Positions 25,339 to 32,019 are shown, counted from the first letter of the stretch. The stretch: 64,000 nucleotides of DNA from Negativibacillus massiliensis (GCF_900148495.1 NZ_FTRU01000006.1:62001-126000), one strand, 5' to 3'. The notes: generated by a model from the letters alone, not told the origin. Numbers and translations are program-made.

Positions 25339-26745
25339 TTACAGGCTCAGTTCATTCAGTCCGATCAGGGAGAGAATGTAGATCTTAAGTGCTTTCATCA
25401 GGAAATCAACACTGTTGCATTCATCTGGCATGTGTTCTTCCCCTTTGCCCTCGCCGCATGGGTTTGGCATATTATGGAAGTGAGGACCAAAAGCAACCGC
25501 ATTATCAAAACGTCTTGCATAAGTACCGCCGCCGATTGTGTATGGAACACCTTTTTCACCGGTTACATGGTCATATGCTGCAAGCAGAGTTTTGATTTCC
25601 GGTGTATCTGCTGGTTTATAGCATGGAACGGAGTTGTTGCGCAGAACTGCTTTTGCTCCGATCTGTGCGATGTGTTTTTCGATGGAAGCAAACAGTTCTT
25701 CACCTTTCATGGTAACTGGATAACGGATATCCAGCTTGAGCTGAAGGTTGTTGTTTTCCATTGCATCAACGCCGTTGATGTGGGTCAGTTTGCCGGATGG
25801 TTCATCCTCTACCTCTACGCCAATACCAGCGCCGTGGCAGTCTTTGAGTACTTCTGCAACAACTTTTACAGCATTCTTTTCAGCCTCAGAAAGCTGTGGC
25901 AGAGTTGCAATCAGTTCAAACAGAACTTTTGTTGCGTTGATGGAACCTTCTGGTTTTGCTGCATGAGCGGTTTTGCCCACAGCAGTCAGTTTGATTCCAC
26001 CCTCTACAGCTTCTACACTGTAAACAGCTTTATCGTAGCTGCCAAGATCTGCTTCCGTTACACCTTTGAGGGTTGCTGTTGCACTTGCACAAACTGCATT
26101 GCTTACTGTTCCGCCAACCAGATTGGTGATAACCTTGCCATCAACCGGGATCTCGATGGTAACGCCCAGCTGACCTTTTTCACCGATGCAGACAGGGAAA
26201 TCAGCATCTGGTGTAAATGCGAAGGTTGGCATTTTTTCTGCTTCCAGATAATGTGGCAGGTCTCCCATACCAGTTTCTTCACTGCATCCCATTACCAGAC
26301 GGAAGGTGTAATTTGGCTGGACACCCAGCTCTTTCATGCATTTGAGCGCATACAGACCAACAACGGTTGGACCTTTGTCATCTGCAACGCCACGGCCATA
26401 GATGTAGCCGTCTTTCTCGATCATATCATAAGGATCATGGCTCCAGCCTTCACCTTCCGGAACAACGTCCAGATGACCCAGAATTGCAATTTCCTTGTCG
26501 CCGCTGCCAAAAACAGCAGAACCTGCATAGTAATCGTAATTTCTGGTCTTGAAGCCCATTGCCTCGCACATTTCCAGTGCTTTGTCCAGTACTTTATGGC
26601 ATCCTTCGCCAAATGGAGAATTTGGGTCATCACTGTGTGTGCTGACGCTCTTAATATTGACCAATTTCGCAATATCGTTTACGATATTCTGTCGATTCTC
26701 TTCAATAAATTTGTCGATTCTCGATTCCATTTCTTTGGAAATCAT
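25339..26745 (-). CDS. pepV: Dipeptidase PepV (M20 family)
   Basis: A 468-residue M20 metallopeptidase of PepV length. The first metal motif is ILGHLDVVPEG, followed by GRGVADDKGP, the general-base pair SEETG, and the C-terminal GGTYAR and HMPDE motifs. It hydrolyses dipeptides in the cytoplasm with two zinc ions. The ATG at 26745 is chosen because GGAGGG lies eight bases before it; the upstream ATG at 26760 overlaps that site. An extended -10 (TGGTATAAT) lies upstream. Confidence 0.93.
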   Translation of the reverse strand: MISKEMESRIDKFIEENRQNIVNDIAKLVNIKSVSTHSDDPNSPFGEGCHKVLDKALEMCEAMGFKTRNYDYYAGSAVFGSGDKEIAILGHLDVVPEGEGWSHDPYDMIEKDGYIYGRGVADDKGPTVVGLYALKCMKELGVQPNYTFRLVMGCSEETGMGDLPHYLEAEKMPTFAFTPDADFPVCIGEKGQLGVTIEIPVDGKVITNLVGGTVSNAVCASATATLKGVTEADLGSYDKAVYSVEAVEGGIKLTAVGKTAHAAKPEGSINATKVLFELIATLPQLSEAEKNAVKVVAEVLKDCHGAGIGVEVEDEPSGKLTHINGVDAMENNNLQLKLDIRYPVTMKGEELFASIEKHIAQIGAKAVLRNNSVPCYKPADTPEIKTLLAAYDHVTGEKGVPYTIGGGTYARRFDNAVAFGPHFHNMPNPCGEGKGEEHMPDECNSVDFLMKALKIYILSLIGLNELSL

Positions 26746-26952
26746 GGTTAATCCCTCCATTGCCTTGATTCATTATCAGAAGTCCATGCTTCTAATTTAA
26801 ATTCATTATACCACAAAACTTGTTTTTTACCATCACTTTCCAAAAAAATTTATACTGCACCGAAACAGTGTACTTTTTAACCTTTGTTGCATAAAAATAA
26901 GTCATATTAAGGCTTTGGAATTGTATGTTTTCGAAATTTTTTCCGGAACTAT

Positions 26953-27036: not shown

Positions 27037-27954
27037 ATGACTTTGCATTTACCTTCTGTGCTCAGGCGTTGTCTGTGCATCATAACCTTACTGATTTTCC
27101 TCTTTGCCGCACTTCCACCTTTTTCCACGGTTGCTGCGCTTGATACTACTCCAAAAGTATATACACCATCTGCCAGCGGAAAAAAGGTTGTGGGAAACAG
27201 CAAGGCAAAGATTGATATTTCCAATGTGGACCAGGGATATCTGATGGTTCGTTATAACGGAAACAGCAAAAAGGTTAAACTTCAAATCACCAAAAAAGGT
27301 TCTACCACCTATACGTATAATCTTTCTTCGGGTTCCTATGAGGCCTTTCCTCTCTCTGAAGGCAGCGGAACCTATACTGTAAATGTGTATGAAAATGTTT
27401 CCGGCAACCAATATTCTCTGGCCTGTGGTGAATCGGTCAAGGTAGAGATCAAAAACAGCCTGACCCCGTTTTTATACTCCAATCAGTATGTAAAATTTAA
27501 CGCGAACAGCAAAACTGTTGCGATGGGAGCACAAATTGCTGCCGGGGCACAAAATCAGCTGCAGGTCGTGGACCGGATCTATGACTATGTTGTATCCAAC
27601 ATTTCATACGATTATCAAAAAGCCAAAACCGTTACCTCTGGATACCTTCCTAATGTAGACACCATTCTTCAATCTAAAAAGGGAATCTGCTTTGACTACG
27701 CTGCGGTAATGGCAACCATGCTCCGCACGCAGGGAATTCCGACCAAATTGGTGGTTGGTTATGCCGGAAGTGCTTATCATGCCTGGGTCAGCGTTTATAT
27801 CAATGAAATTGGATGGATTGACAACATCTTTTATTTTGACGGCAAATCCTGGGTTCGCATGGACCCGACCTTCGCTTCCAGCGGAAACAGCAGCGCTTCC
27901 ATCATGAAGTATATCGGAGATGGAAAAAACTACAAAGCAATGTATGCTTACTAA
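27037..27954 (+). CDS. Secreted transglutaminase-like protein
   Basis: A 305-residue exported protein. A Sec signal peptide with Arg-rich start and hydrophobic core covers about 1-34 (cleavage near VAA). A beta-rich region (about 45-140) is followed by a transglutaminase-like domain with Cys219 (KGICFDYA), His249 (AYHAW) and Asp277 (MDPTF), so the triad is intact. It probably acts as a peptidase or amidase outside the cell. It lies 30 bases upstream of a PilC-like gene, so it appears to be the first gene of the pilus-like cluster. Confidence 0.88.
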   Translation: MTLHLPSVLRRCLCIITLLIFLFAALPPFSTVAALDTTPKVYTPSASGKKVVGNSKAKIDISNVDQGYLMVRYNGNSKKVKLQITKKGSTTYTYNLSSGSYEAFPLSEGSGTYTVNVYENVSGNQYSLACGESVKVEIKNSLTPFLYSNQYVKFNANSKTVAMGAQIAAGAQNQLQVVDRIYDYVVSNISYDYQKAKTVTSGYLPNVDTILQSKKGICFDYAAVMATMLRTQGIPTKLVVGYAGSAYHAWVSVYINEIGWIDNIFYFDGKSWVRMDPTFASSGNSSASIMKYIGDGKNYKAMYAY

Positions 27955-27984
27955 AAATTCATGGATCATAAAAGGAGTGACAAC

Positions 27985-29040
27985 ATGGCTGCACAGCTCA
28001 ACCAAAAAAATCTTTCTTCTTTGCAGATTGCTTCCTTCTGCACCCAGCTTTCTCTGTTGATCAAAGCCGGTATCTCTCTTCAGGAAGGAATCCACATTCT
28101 TTACGAAGACGCTTCCTCTCAGGCAGAAAAGGAACTCTTAAAACAAATTCTGGAACCAATTGAAGAGGGACAGCCCCTTGCTTTTTCTCTCAGACAGAGC
28201 GACGCATTTCCACAGTATATGGTGGAAATGGTGGAGATCGGTGAAACTTCCGGTAAACTGGAAGAGGTTCTGGATTCTCTGACCGAATACTATGAACGCA
28301 GCGAAAATATTTCCAAAAGTATCCGCAGCGCGGTCACCTATCCAATGATCATGATTTTGATGATGGCTGTTGTAATCGGTGTTCTGATGATTAAAGTACT
28401 TCCGATTTTCCGCCAGGTATTCAGTCAGCTGGGTACAGAAATGTCCAATTTCTCTCAGAATATCATGGATTTCGGTTCGATTGTTGGAATGATCGCTTCA
28501 GTATTCATCGGTTTAATCCTGCTTCTTATTATCATTGCGCTTGTTTTGCGGATGACACCTTCCGGTCAAAAAACATTGTCCAATATCTTCTCTCGTCTTC
28601 CGGTCATCAAACCATTGTACCGCAAAATGGCTTCCGGTCGCTTTGCTTCGGCAATGGCTCTGATGCTTTCCAGCGGACTGGATACTGACCAGGCCCTCTC
28701 GATGACCCAGCAGTTAATTACCGATCAGGAAACCTCCCAGAAAATTTCCTCCATGCAGCAGCAGATTCACGAAGGTTCTTCCTTTGCTGACGCATTGGTT
28801 TCTGTTTCGATCTTTTCCAGCGTCTATGCCCGCATGGTCAGTGTTGGATTCCGTACCGGAGCCATCGACTCTGTTATGGCAAAAATCGCTCACCATTATG
28901 AAGATGAAGTCAACGATAAAATTGCTTCTATCATCGGCATTCTGGAACCTACCTTTGTTGCTATTCTGTCCATTGTCATCGGAATGATCCTGCTGTCTGT
29001 CATGCTTCCACTGATGGGGGTCATGTCCTCTATCGGTTAA
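27985..29040 (+). CDS. Type II secretion/type IV pilus inner-membrane platform protein (GspF/PilC)
   Basis: A 351-residue polytopic protein with two GspF repeats, about 12-135 and 215-340, and three membrane spans. Motifs include FCTQLSLLIKAGISLQEGI, VEMVEIGETSGKLEE and MVSVGFRTGAIDSVM, all typical of the platform that couples ATPase rotation to pilin movement. The ATG at 27985 follows AAAAGGAG; the frame to 27961 includes that site and is not used. It is the only platform gene in the cluster. Confidence 0.92.
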   Translation: MAAQLNQKNLSSLQIASFCTQLSLLIKAGISLQEGIHILYEDASSQAEKELLKQILEPIEEGQPLAFSLRQSDAFPQYMVEMVEIGETSGKLEEVLDSLTEYYERSENISKSIRSAVTYPMIMILMMAVVIGVLMIKVLPIFRQVFSQLGTEMSNFSQNIMDFGSIVGMIASVFIGLILLLIIIALVLRMTPSGQKTLSNIFSRLPVIKPLYRKMASGRFASAMALMLSSGLDTDQALSMTQQLITDQETSQKISSMQQQIHEGSSFADALVSVSIFSSVYARMVSVGFRTGAIDSVMAKIAHHYEDEVNDKIASIIGILEPTFVAILSIVIGMILLSVMLPLMGVMSSIG

Positions 29041-29064
29041 TCGCGTGCAAAAGGAGGTATGGTG

Positions 29065-29439
29065 ATGACCATCTTAAAAAAACAACATCCTTTTCTTTCC
29101 CTGATTCGGGAAAATATTCTCGCGGTTTTATTTTTCCTGTTTCTGGTGCTGGTAATCTGGATTGGACTGGAAAACCTTTCCACCTCCACACAATCGGAAC
29201 AGTTGATTGCAACTGAACAGGCAGTGCGCCGCGCTGCAGTTCAATGCTATGCACTGGAAGGTTCTTATCCTTCTGACCTTACATATCTGGAACAGCATTA
29301 TGGATTGATGTTAAACCATGACCGTTATGTGGTGCACTATCAGTCGCTTGGCTCCAACCTGATGCCTCAAATTGCTGTTTTCAGTCTGGAAGAAGAATCT
29401 CCGGTTTCCAATCTTCTCTCTGAGGAGGCATCATCATGA
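29065..29439 (+). CDS. Pilin-like membrane protein
   Basis: A 124-residue protein with one N-terminal hydrophobic helix (about 18-40) and a small extracellular region containing EGSYPSDLTYLEQHYGL, a pattern common after the first helix of type IV pilins and GspG proteins. The canonical G|FxxxE processing site is absent: there is no Gly before the helix and the Glu lies at another position. The ATG at 29065 is preferred by spacing from AAGGAGG. It overlaps the next gene by four bases. Pilin identity is inferred. Confidence 0.6.
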   Translation: MTILKKQHPFLSLIRENILAVLFFLFLVLVIWIGLENLSTSTQSEQLIATEQAVRRAAVQCYALEGSYPSDLTYLEQHYGLMLNHDRYVVHYQSLGSNLMPQIAVFSLEEESPVSNLLSEEASS

Positions 29440-29918
29440 TCAAGCAAAAAAATCATGTTGTTGATCTTTTGTTTTCTCTGGCACTGTTCTGTGTTTTTGC
29501 CGCATCTGCATTGACAATCGTTATTATGGGTGCGGATGTCTATCAAAAATCTGTCAATGACATGAACAGAAATTCCACGATACGCACCTCTTTAAGCTAT
29601 CTTTCAGAAAAGATTCATCAGAATGATGCGGAAAATGGAATCCGGATTGACCAGTTAAACGACCTTCCTTCTCTGGTTCTGACACAAAACTTAAATGGAG
29701 AAACCTACGAAACCTGGATTTATGCTTATGATGGCATGCTCTGTGAGATTATGACCGACCTGGAAAATGGATTTACTCCGGAAGAGGGCCAGCCGATTCT
29801 GGAAATCGGAAGCTTTTCTCTGGAGCAAAACGGTTCGCGGATCATCCTGACCGTTTCCGACACACAAGGAAACACCTCATCTCTTTCTGTTTCTCCAAGA
29901 AGTAGCATATCATCCTGA
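29436..29918 (+). CDS. DUF4860 protein, pilin-like
   Basis: A 160-residue protein with a single N-terminal membrane helix (about 11-31) and a beta-rich extracellular domain; sequence pattern matches DUF4860, a family of unknown function. The N-terminus has the layout of a pilin but with Asp where Glu5 would stand and no preceding Gly. The ATGA overlap with the upstream gene shows translational coupling. Probably a minor pilin or scaffold of the same machine. Confidence 0.65.
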   Translation: MIKQKNHVVDLLFSLALFCVFAASALTIVIMGADVYQKSVNDMNRNSTIRTSLSYLSEKIHQNDAENGIRIDQLNDLPSLVLTQNLNGETYETWIYAYDGMLCEIMTDLENGFTPEEGQPILEIGSFSLEQNGSRIILTVSDTQGNTSSLSVSPRSSISS

Positions 29919-29951
29919 CCAATATCCTGAATTTTGAAAGGGGGTTATATC

Positions 29952-30386
29952 ATGGGTGGAAAAAGAGCTTCCAAGTCTGAGCTCTTTCTGATGGAGTTGA
30001 TTTTCAGCATCCTGTTTTTTTCCATTGCCAGCGCGGTCTGTGTCACATTATTTGTCCATGCAAGGCTGACTAGTATCGAAAGTACTCAGCTAACAACAGC
30101 TACACTTCAGGCACAATCTGCCGCAGAAACCTTTAAGTCTGTGAATGCCGATCTCGATCAGGCTGCTGACCTCCTGAATGCTCAGCAAACACCGGAAGGC
30201 AGCCTGCAGATTTTATACGATCAAAACTGGAATCCGGTCTCGGAGCCTGACAGCGCTTCCTATCTTCTCACCCTGACACCGGATGATCCATCTCCCGATT
30301 CCAATCAGCTGTGCAGTGCCCAAATTCAGGTCAGCAAACAGGGCGAATCCATCTATGAACTGACTGTCACACAGTATGTACGATAA
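29952..30386 (+). CDS. Prepilin-like minor subunit
   Basis: A 144-residue protein. After a short basic leader (GGKRASKSE) a pilin-like helix begins LFLMELIFSILFF, where a Glu occupies the +5 position of type IV pilins, but the residue before the helix is Glu rather than Gly. The rest is an alpha-helical spine extension and a Ser/Asp-rich head. The ATG at 29952 follows GAAAGGGGG. It fits a pseudopilin role. Confidence 0.62.
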   Translation: MGGKRASKSELFLMELIFSILFFSIASAVCVTLFVHARLTSIESTQLTTATLQAQSAAETFKSVNADLDQAADLLNAQQTPEGSLQILYDQNWNPVSEPDSASYLLTLTPDDPSPDSNQLCSAQIQVSKQGESIYELTVTQYVR

Positions 30387-30408
30387 TTCATGAAAGGAAC
30401 TGATAAAT

Positions 30409-30903
30409 ATGAAGCAGCAAAGCAAAAACCATTCTGCTGGCGTCAGCATCGGAATGGTATCGATTCTCATGATCTTTGTCGTACTCTGTCTGACCACATT
30501 TGCTACACTTTCTTTTGTTTCTGCAAGGGCTGATCTGAAACTCAGCAAAAAAGCTTCCGATTCGGTAAGTGAATATTATGCTGCGGATTCTGCCGCAGAA
30601 ACATATCTTGCTCAGATTGCAAGCCAGCTTGAAACTGCTGATTCTTCCTGGCAGCAGACAGTTTCTCTGTCCGACACATCATTGGAGTGCTCTGTTGCAG
30701 AAAACAACGCATTGTTTTCTTATTCTGTTTCGGTCAACGAACAAAAAAATCTTATGGTTGTTCTTTCCTGCCCTCTCGATTCCAATGGAATTCCTTCTGG
30801 TGAACTTTCTGTCCAGAAATGGCAGGTTGAAACCCTCGCTAACGATACCCTGCAGGAAGAACCCGTATTGAATCTGGCTTCCCAGCCGCCGCTTTTACCT
30901 TAA
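30409..30903 (+). CDS. PilX/GspK-like minor pilin candidate
   Basis: A 164-residue protein with a pilin-like N-terminus: leader ending SAG, then VSIGMVSILMIFVVLCL. The Gly at -1 is present but Glu5 is replaced by Met, as in some GspK/PilX-type tip subunits. After the helix, EYYAADSAAETYL resembles the PilX-like spine. The stop codon is embedded in a strong terminator hairpin (30884-30919). Confidence 0.6.
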   Translation: MKQQSKNHSAGVSIGMVSILMIFVVLCLTTFATLSFVSARADLKLSKKASDSVSEYYAADSAAETYLAQIASQLETADSSWQQTVSLSDTSLECSVAENNALFSYSVSVNEQKNLMVVLSCPLDSNGIPSGELSVQKWQVETLANDTLQEEPVLNLASQPPLLP

Positions 30904-30919
30904 AGCTGCGGCTTTTTTC
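30884..30919 (+). terminator. Terminator/attenuator upstream of pilT
   Basis: AGCCGC-C-GCTTT pairs with AAAGC-T-GCGGCT (one mismatch, 6-base loop), followed by TTTTTTCT. The TAA stop of the minor-pilin gene lies at the loop edge. The pilT gene starts 41 bases later with no clear promoter of its own. Confidence 0.8.
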
Positions 30920-30960
30920 TACCATTCGCAATACAATTCCCACAGAAAGGATGTATTCTC

Positions 30961-32019
30961 TTGGAACTGAGTCAAATTTTAAAATCCGCTGTTGAAAAAC
31001 AGGCCTCTGATATTTTTATTGTCTCCGGCCTTCCTCTTTCCTTTAAAGTAAACCACGTCATTGAACCACAGTCGGAAGAAAAGTTGTTTCCTGATGCAAC
31101 CGAAGCTTTGATTCGGGAAATTTACTCTCTGGCAAACGAACGGGATATCGACCGCTTTTTAGATTGCGGAGATGATGACTTCTCTTTTTCGCTTCCGGGT
31201 GTATCCCGTTTTCGTGTCAGCACCTATAAACAGCGCAGCTCGCTTGCTGCTGTCATCCGTGTTGTAACATTCGATCTTCCTGATCCGGAAAAGCTGGGAC
31301 TTCCTTCGGTAATGATGGATCTTGCATTGCGTAAAAAAGGTATGGTACTAGTTACCGGCCCTGCCGGAAGCGGTAAATCCACCTCTCTCGCCTGCATGAT
31401 TGACCGAATCAATCAAACTCGAAATTCCCACATCATCACCCTGGAAGATCCAATTGAATTTTTGCATCGTCACAAAAAGAGCATCGTCAGCCAGCGTGAA
31501 ATCCCAAACGATACTCAAAGTTATGTTACCGCTCTGCGTGCTGCTTTAAGACAGTCCCCAGACGTTATTCTGCTTGGTGAAATGCGTGACTATGAAACCA
31601 TCAATACTGCCTTAACCGCAGCTGAGACCGGTCATCTGGTATTCTCCACCTTGCACACCGTCGGCGCTTCCAGCACAATCGACCGAATCATTGACGCTTT
31701 CCCTCCAAACCAGCAGGCACAAATCCGCATTCAGCTTTCTATGGTACTTCAAGCAGTTGTTTCCCAGCAGCTTATTCCTACTGTAAACGGCGGTGTTGTG
31801 GCTGCATTTGAAATCATGATCTGCAACGGTGCGATCCGAAACCTGATCCGCGAATCCAAAACCCATCAGATCGATACTGTTATCTTTTCTTCTGCTTCTG
31901 ACGGCATGATTACAATGGACAACAGTATTCTGAATCTTTATAAGCAGGGAATCATCTCTGCTCAGGATGCTGTTTTGTACAGCACCAATCCAGAATTGAT
32001 GTCCAAGAAAGTACGTTAA
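30961..32019 (+). CDS. PilT-type pilus retraction/secretion ATPase
   Basis: A 352-residue GspE/PilT-family ATPase of PilT length. The N-terminal PAS-like domain (1-105) starts with the PilT pattern KQASDIFIVSGLPL. Walker A GPAGSGKS is at 133-140, the Asp box ITLEDPIEF at 159-167, Walker B DVILLGEMRD at 201-210 and the His box TGHLVFSTLHT near 223-233. It powers pilus dynamics from the cytoplasm. The start is TTG 30961, ten bases after AAAGG. It is the only ATPase in the cluster. Confidence 0.9.
   Translation: MELSQILKSAVEKQASDIFIVSGLPLSFKVNHVIEPQSEEKLFPDATEALIREIYSLANERDIDRFLDCGDDDFSFSLPGVSRFRVSTYKQRSSLAAVIRVVTFDLPDPEKLGLPSVMMDLALRKKGMVLVTGPAGSGKSTSLACMIDRINQTRNSHIITLEDPIEFLHRHKKSIVSQREIPNDTQSYVTALRAALRQSPDVILLGEMRDYETINTALTAAETGHLVFSTLHTVGASSTIDRIIDAFPPNQQAQIRIQLSMVLQAVVSQQLIPTVNGGVVAAFEIMICNGAIRNLIRESKTHQIDTVIFSSASDGMITMDNSILNLYKQGIISAQDAVLYSTNPELMSKKVR

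Follow-up and report, generated by a model that had tools for sequence, protein, structure and literature searches.

How can an operon that encodes a pilus platform, pilin-like proteins and a PilT-type ATPase operate when neither a prepilin peptidase nor an extension ATPase is encoded beside it? This question is raised by a locus in a 64,000-nucleotide stretch of the Negativibacillus massiliensis genome (NZ_FTRU01000006.1:62001-126000), which we call the window. A first-pass annotation had described seven closely packed genes here, for a transglutaminase-like protein, a GspF/PilC platform, four pilin-like proteins and PilT. We confirmed that positions 27037-32019 of the plus strand hold seven tightly packed, intact open reading frames for these products. 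The flanking genes lie on the opposite strand (25339-26760, and from 32069 on). The predicted features are as follows.

27037..27954, + strand: TG, a secreted transglutaminase/cysteine-protease-like protein (PF01841, 2.7e-25; signal peptide; Cys218-His248-Asp276; C-terminal Tyr-x5-Tyr)
27961..29040, + strand: GspF/PilC inner-membrane platform (T2SSF, PF00482, 1.2e-47; nearest NCBIfam profiles GspF and PilC)
29065..29439, + strand: p1, a single-helix pilin-like protein without a leader motif (alignment to relatives; AF2)
29436..29918, + strand: p2, a DUF4860 protein, GspJ/PilW-like minor pilin (PF16152, 4.2e-33; AF2; XcpV-XcpW match)
29952..30386, + strand: p3, a minor pilin in the GspI/PilV position (alignment; family profile against solved pilins; N_methyl in relatives)
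30409..30903, + strand: p4, a minor pilin in the GspK/PilX position (alignment and gene position only)
30884..30919, + strand: terminator-like hairpin and T run in the p4/pilT gap (RNA fold -17 kcal/mol, z -5.6)
30961..32019, + strand: PilT-family ATPase with a TTG start (TIGR01420, 438 bits; Walker A, GEMRD and AIRNLIRE intact)

The ATPase falls within the PilT/PilU family, its TIGR01420 score exceeding the cut-off of 319 bits and its AIRNLIRE motif being present. Ribosome-site spacing favors 29065 over 29059 as the start of p1 and 29952 as the best start of p3. In the family profile search, p1, p3 and p4 of the window matched no family above the cut-off. The hairpin between p4 and pilT, which is specific to the window as far as seen, may depress pilT expression.

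Motifs, fold and ancestry of the pilin-like proteins

Pilin motifs were placed by alignment to relatives with canonical leaders. The class III signal G|FxxxE is absent: none of the four proteins has both of its features, and partial traces are left in p2-p4. p1 has neither Gly-1 nor Glu5, p2 carries Lys at -1 and Asp at +5, p3 has Glu5 with Glu at -1, and p4 has Gly-1 (G15, IG|MVSIL) but lacks Glu5, as cap subunits of the GspK/PilX type normally do. The aligned motifs agree with the first-pass annotation that Glu5 is found only in the protein at 29952 (p3) and Gly-1 only in that at 30409 (p4). Its further statement that the proteins at 29065 and 29436 lack both is right for p1 and half wrong for p2, given the two residues just named.

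Structure predictions were made from alignments of two rows each, the window sequence and that of locus L066. AF2 models p2 with a 61-residue helix and a head of eight strands (pLDDT 80). Among PDB structures, the XcpV-XcpW pseudopilin complex matches this model with the highest probability (0.96; TM 0.46, E-value 0.24), although no PDB match reached an E-value of 0.001 or better. The p1 model (pLDDT 69) consists of a long helix and a small sheet, and Foldseek returned weak pilin matches only for it. In profile searches of the PDB, p1 and p2 stayed at chance level and nothing was found for p4; the p3 family profile matched solved pilins at 3.7e-4, and 7/17 relatives of p3 have an N_methyl match. 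Pilin ancestry and fold are indicated by N_methyl-bearing homologues for p1, p2 and p3, by the predicted fold of p2, and for p4 by alignment alone. By sequence, p1-p3 are homologues of canonical prepilins.

Searches for a peptidase and an extension ATPase

The genome that holds the window (G000; 2.88 Mb, 8 contigs, 99% complete) gave no Peptidase_A24 match at E<=1. In case PF01478 had missed the peptidase, we searched again with a PilD profile built from eight full-length Clostridial PilDs. In two control genomes this profile recovered PilD (1e-74 and 1e-104), and it returned nothing at E<=1 in G000, G118, G148 or G244. The T2SSE search of the whole genome gave one strong match, the operon PilT, and three weak ones: RecD2; SpoIIIAA, adjoining SpoIIIAB; and a 178-aa frame at 19.6 bits. 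By this search, no PilB, GspE or TadA is found in the genome, and with no N_methyl match anywhere in it, no N-methylation-type pilin is either. The lack of a prepilin peptidase and of a PilB/GspE-type ATPase, first noticed in the window, is therefore true of the entire genome: the genome-wide search that the first-pass annotation had proposed turned up neither PilD nor PilB.

Distribution, transglutaminase partner and stepwise loss

DUF4860 occurs in 31/291 genomes of the class and in 20/61 nearer relatives. It is present in only two of the six genomes of the window's genus, which marks the operon as accessory. The synteny of DUF4860, PilT and TG across Clostridia, a comparison also proposed earlier, revealed the same cassette in 28 loci from about 24 genera, mostly in identical order (the window and L066 of Faecalibacillus intestinalis counted in). 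This recurrence places the arrangement beyond chance. Each of these 28 compact loci has GspF and p1-p4, and TG is a stable partner, adjoining the operon in 25 of them; G325 encodes a TG of the same type at a different site. No further neighbor is common to the compact clade: CheY adjoins a few loci, and an RNase H-like protein lies by family f11 loci only (names read from the sequences). A scan of genome contigs returned F. intestinalis as the single named relative. In L063 (G118) the operon is cut down to GspF and p1-p4 without an adjacent TG, and that genome (100% complete) has no T2SSE match anywhere, so PilT has been lost. A scan of viral contigs found one PilT, of 63% identity, at the edge of an IMG/VR contig (L090:1-1053), probably host DNA beside a provirus.

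TG belongs to the PF01841 superfamily, and its Cys-His-Asp triad is invariant in the compact loci. A lipobox-like motif is present in 17/25 compact copies and absent in the window's own. All 31 operon-linked copies end in Tyr-x5-Tyr/Phe, as against 0/6 other TGs of the same genomes with readable ends; these six belong to other subfamilies, so descent alone could explain the difference. L062 (G159) is a canonical PilB/PilT cluster whose p4 homologue has 861 aa; TG stands beside PilB there, which indicates that the TG link predates the reduction. Only gene linkage ties PilT action to TG, and coupled peptide processing by the predicted enzyme is a guess.

The loci can be compared by the signals that they retain. 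In the PilB-linked loci L060-L062, p2 is canonical, and so is p1 (G|FTLIEL) in the two where it was found. Intermediate loci (f11, f33, f43, f77) have no PilB in the cluster and a p1 without any motif; Gly-1 is kept in p3 (7/7), p4 (15/15) and 10/16 copies of p2, all 16 of which have Glu5. Within the compact loci, Gly-1 is found in 0/28 copies of p2, 6/28 of p3 and 26/28 of p4, and p3 has Glu5 in 27/28. Both the leader and Glu5 of p1 are lost in all PilB-less loci. The sequences show that the cleavage and polymerization signals of p1-p3 were lost stepwise. Two f11 genomes, G125 (L076) and G287 (L084), encode PilD and no PilB and have cleavable p2-p4; they represent an intermediate stage of loss.

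Compact GspF proteins form one clade (100/99), and so do the compact operon PilTs (100/100), from which the PilTs of pilus loci in the same genomes are separate. In both trees the f43 branch is placed closer to the loci that carry PilB, so that PilB may have disappeared on more than one occasion. In three f31 genomes (L077, L078, L079), the closest relative of PilT is encoded 30-40 kb away from the rest of the operon and branches outside the compact clade. Between the members of two closely related pairs of compact loci, each gene has a dN/dS within 0.02-0.23; the operon consists of working genes under purifying selection.

Most genomes compared are drafts. The operon is INDEPENDENCE from PilD and PilB in six carriers of at least 98% completeness, namely G000, the closed G148, G244, G300, G308 and G325, in which the operon PilT is the sole strong T2SSE match and no A24 peptidase is found. 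Only short A24 peptidases, plus a further ATPase, as in Tad systems, occur in G165, G282, G181, G223, G243 and G304. A separate canonical pilus locus with PilB, PilT and PilD is present in G265, G026, G263 and the Faecalibacillus genome G291, and its PilT falls outside the compact clade. The scenario that the earlier annotation named as its refutation, in which the genes are remnants of a complete pilus encoded elsewhere, does not hold, as the N. massiliensis genome has no canonical pilus and the one in these four genomes is a separate locus. Among the 61 relatives, A24 tracks PilB (18/19 PilB genomes vs 5/42 others; p 4e-10, kin genomes counted as independent) and does not track the operon (9/20 vs 14/41; p 0.57, kin genomes again counted as independent). 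The closed genome G148, without A24 or PilB, has three orphan, canonical GFTLIE pilin-like genes among unrelated neighbors (L080:3832-4614, L081 near 3400 and L082:3995-4834), so a processing enzyme of another kind is conceivable.

Mode of action and relation to known systems

With a probability of about one half, we interpret the operon as derived by reduction from a Clostridial type IV pilus and as now encoding a PilT-only, peptidase-independent membrane machine, the mechanism of which we infer. Since the extension motor and the pilin-cutting peptidase have been dropped and PilT kept, the machine probably acts within the membrane and assembles no pilus. p2, p3 and p4 would form a GspJ/GspI/GspK tip complex on the PilC platform, with p1 alongside. 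Because there is no peptidase, the N-termini of p2-p4 would stay uncut and cytoplasmic, and the proteins would remain membrane-anchored. Rather than retract a filament, PilT hexamers may then take PilC and this stub through conformational cycles. Such a cycle could position, activate or release the surface TG, a predicted lipoprotein in most carriers, perhaps via its conserved C-terminal Tyr-x5-Tyr tail, and TG would in turn modify or cleave envelope proteins. We propose tentatively that the compact loci make up a widespread class in which PilT is the only motor, the pilin-like subunits stay uncleaved and form no filament, and the machine serves a TG-like enzyme at the cell surface. The retained Glu5 of p3 (27/28) speaks against the PilT-only model, as it would be expected if the subunits still pack in a pilus-like manner, and so does the Gly-1 retained in p4 and in 6/28 copies of p3. 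The first-pass annotation had suggested a divergent pilus or a secretion or uptake pseudopilus. Its type IV pilus origin, non-canonical prepilins and missing PilD and PilB are borne out, genome-wide and in many genomes; a filament is unlikely because p1 has no leader and no Glu5, and PilB loss also argues against it.

The main rival is a short true pseudopilus, in which PilT is an assembly or two-way motor and p1-p4, their leaders uncut or cut by another protease, polymerize and move material across the cell wall by pushing or pulling. The helical pilin-like proteins and the partly retained Glu/Asp5 would fit, and Com, T2SS and Tad systems run on a single ATPase, although known single-motor systems use the PilB, GspE or TadA types. 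PilT is also required for extension of the MSHA pilus of V. cholerae (PMC9815625). However, p1, the apparent major subunit, has lost its leader and Glu5 in all PilB-less loci, and the PilD profile found no peptidase, which leaves this alternative possible but unlikely. A DNA-uptake pseudopilus, in which the pilin-like complex binds DNA and PilT draws it toward ComEC, is improbable: ComEC is encoded by 11/11 PilD-less carriers tested, but also by 10/14 control genomes, so that its presence carries no information. The Com pilus as known, moreover, needs ComGA and ComC, both absent here (138 bits with the ComGA model vs a cut-off of 300; no A24 in the genome), and the TG partner would be left unexplained.

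That a normal type IV pilus is present, with a PilB and a PilD that have diverged beyond detection or lie in unassembled sequence, could be argued from the draft state of most genomes and from the orphan GFTLIE genes of G148, which has no detectable A24. Closed and near-complete genomes nevertheless agree, the PilD profile had no match at E<=1 in G000, G118, G148 or G244, and cleavage sites have disappeared from p2 and from most copies of p3, making this quite improbable. Functionless decay of a lost pilus might be suspected from the two missing parts out of four core ones, the patchy carriage (2/6 in the genus) and the state of G118, without PilT and adjacent TG. It is highly improbable in view of intact reading frames, a gene order kept in 28 loci, purifying selection (dN/dS <0.25 in the pairs tested), invariant catalytic residues and a monophyletic reduced state.

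According to a current review (PMC10191384), pilins, a prepilin peptidase, an extension ATPase and a platform occur in every type IV filament system. The operon has the platform of this core set, but the genome-wide searches revealed neither the peptidase nor the extension ATPase and the proteins lack the pilin signature, so by that definition it is not a type IV filament system. By descent it clearly belongs to the type IV filament superfamily. It shares PilC, PilT and homologous pilins with the Clostridial type IVa pilus, of which L062 has DUF4860 and TG genes beside PilB, but has no PilB, PilD or PilMNO, has lost the leaders and most Gly-1, and has PilC and PilT clades of its own. Like the Com pilus (ComGA-GG, ComC), it is a small monoderm operon with one ATPase, one platform and several pilins; unlike it, the ATPase is of the PilT type, ComC is missing, the pilins are not cleavable and TG is a partner. 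p3, p2 and p4 match GspI, GspJ and GspK of the T2SS pseudopilus tip by order and motifs, and p2 resembles XcpV-XcpW, whereas GspE, a GspG-type major subunit, GspO and a secretin are missing. The sporulation pair SpoIIIAA-SpoIIIAB, both encoded in this genome, likewise combines a secretion-type ATPase with a platform-like protein (SpoIIIAB resembles GspF) without a pilus or PilD, but it has no pilins, another ATPase subfamily and a sporulation locus.

In the open-access literature, we found no paper that names DUF4860 and no description of a PilT system without PilB or of a system like the compact operon. Frequent loss of PilT has been noted in an evolutionary survey (PMC6668835); the compact operon is the opposite case, a conserved system under selection in which PilT remains and PilB, PilD and pilin processing are gone. 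The route of this loss can be read from living intermediates, and a closed genome puts the absence on firm ground. The operon offers a natural minimal system for studying the action of PilT by itself and that of a minor-pilin tip complex in the absence of a pilus. If our interpretation is true, PilD and PilB would be dispensable, and PilT would be able to power a non-pilus function.
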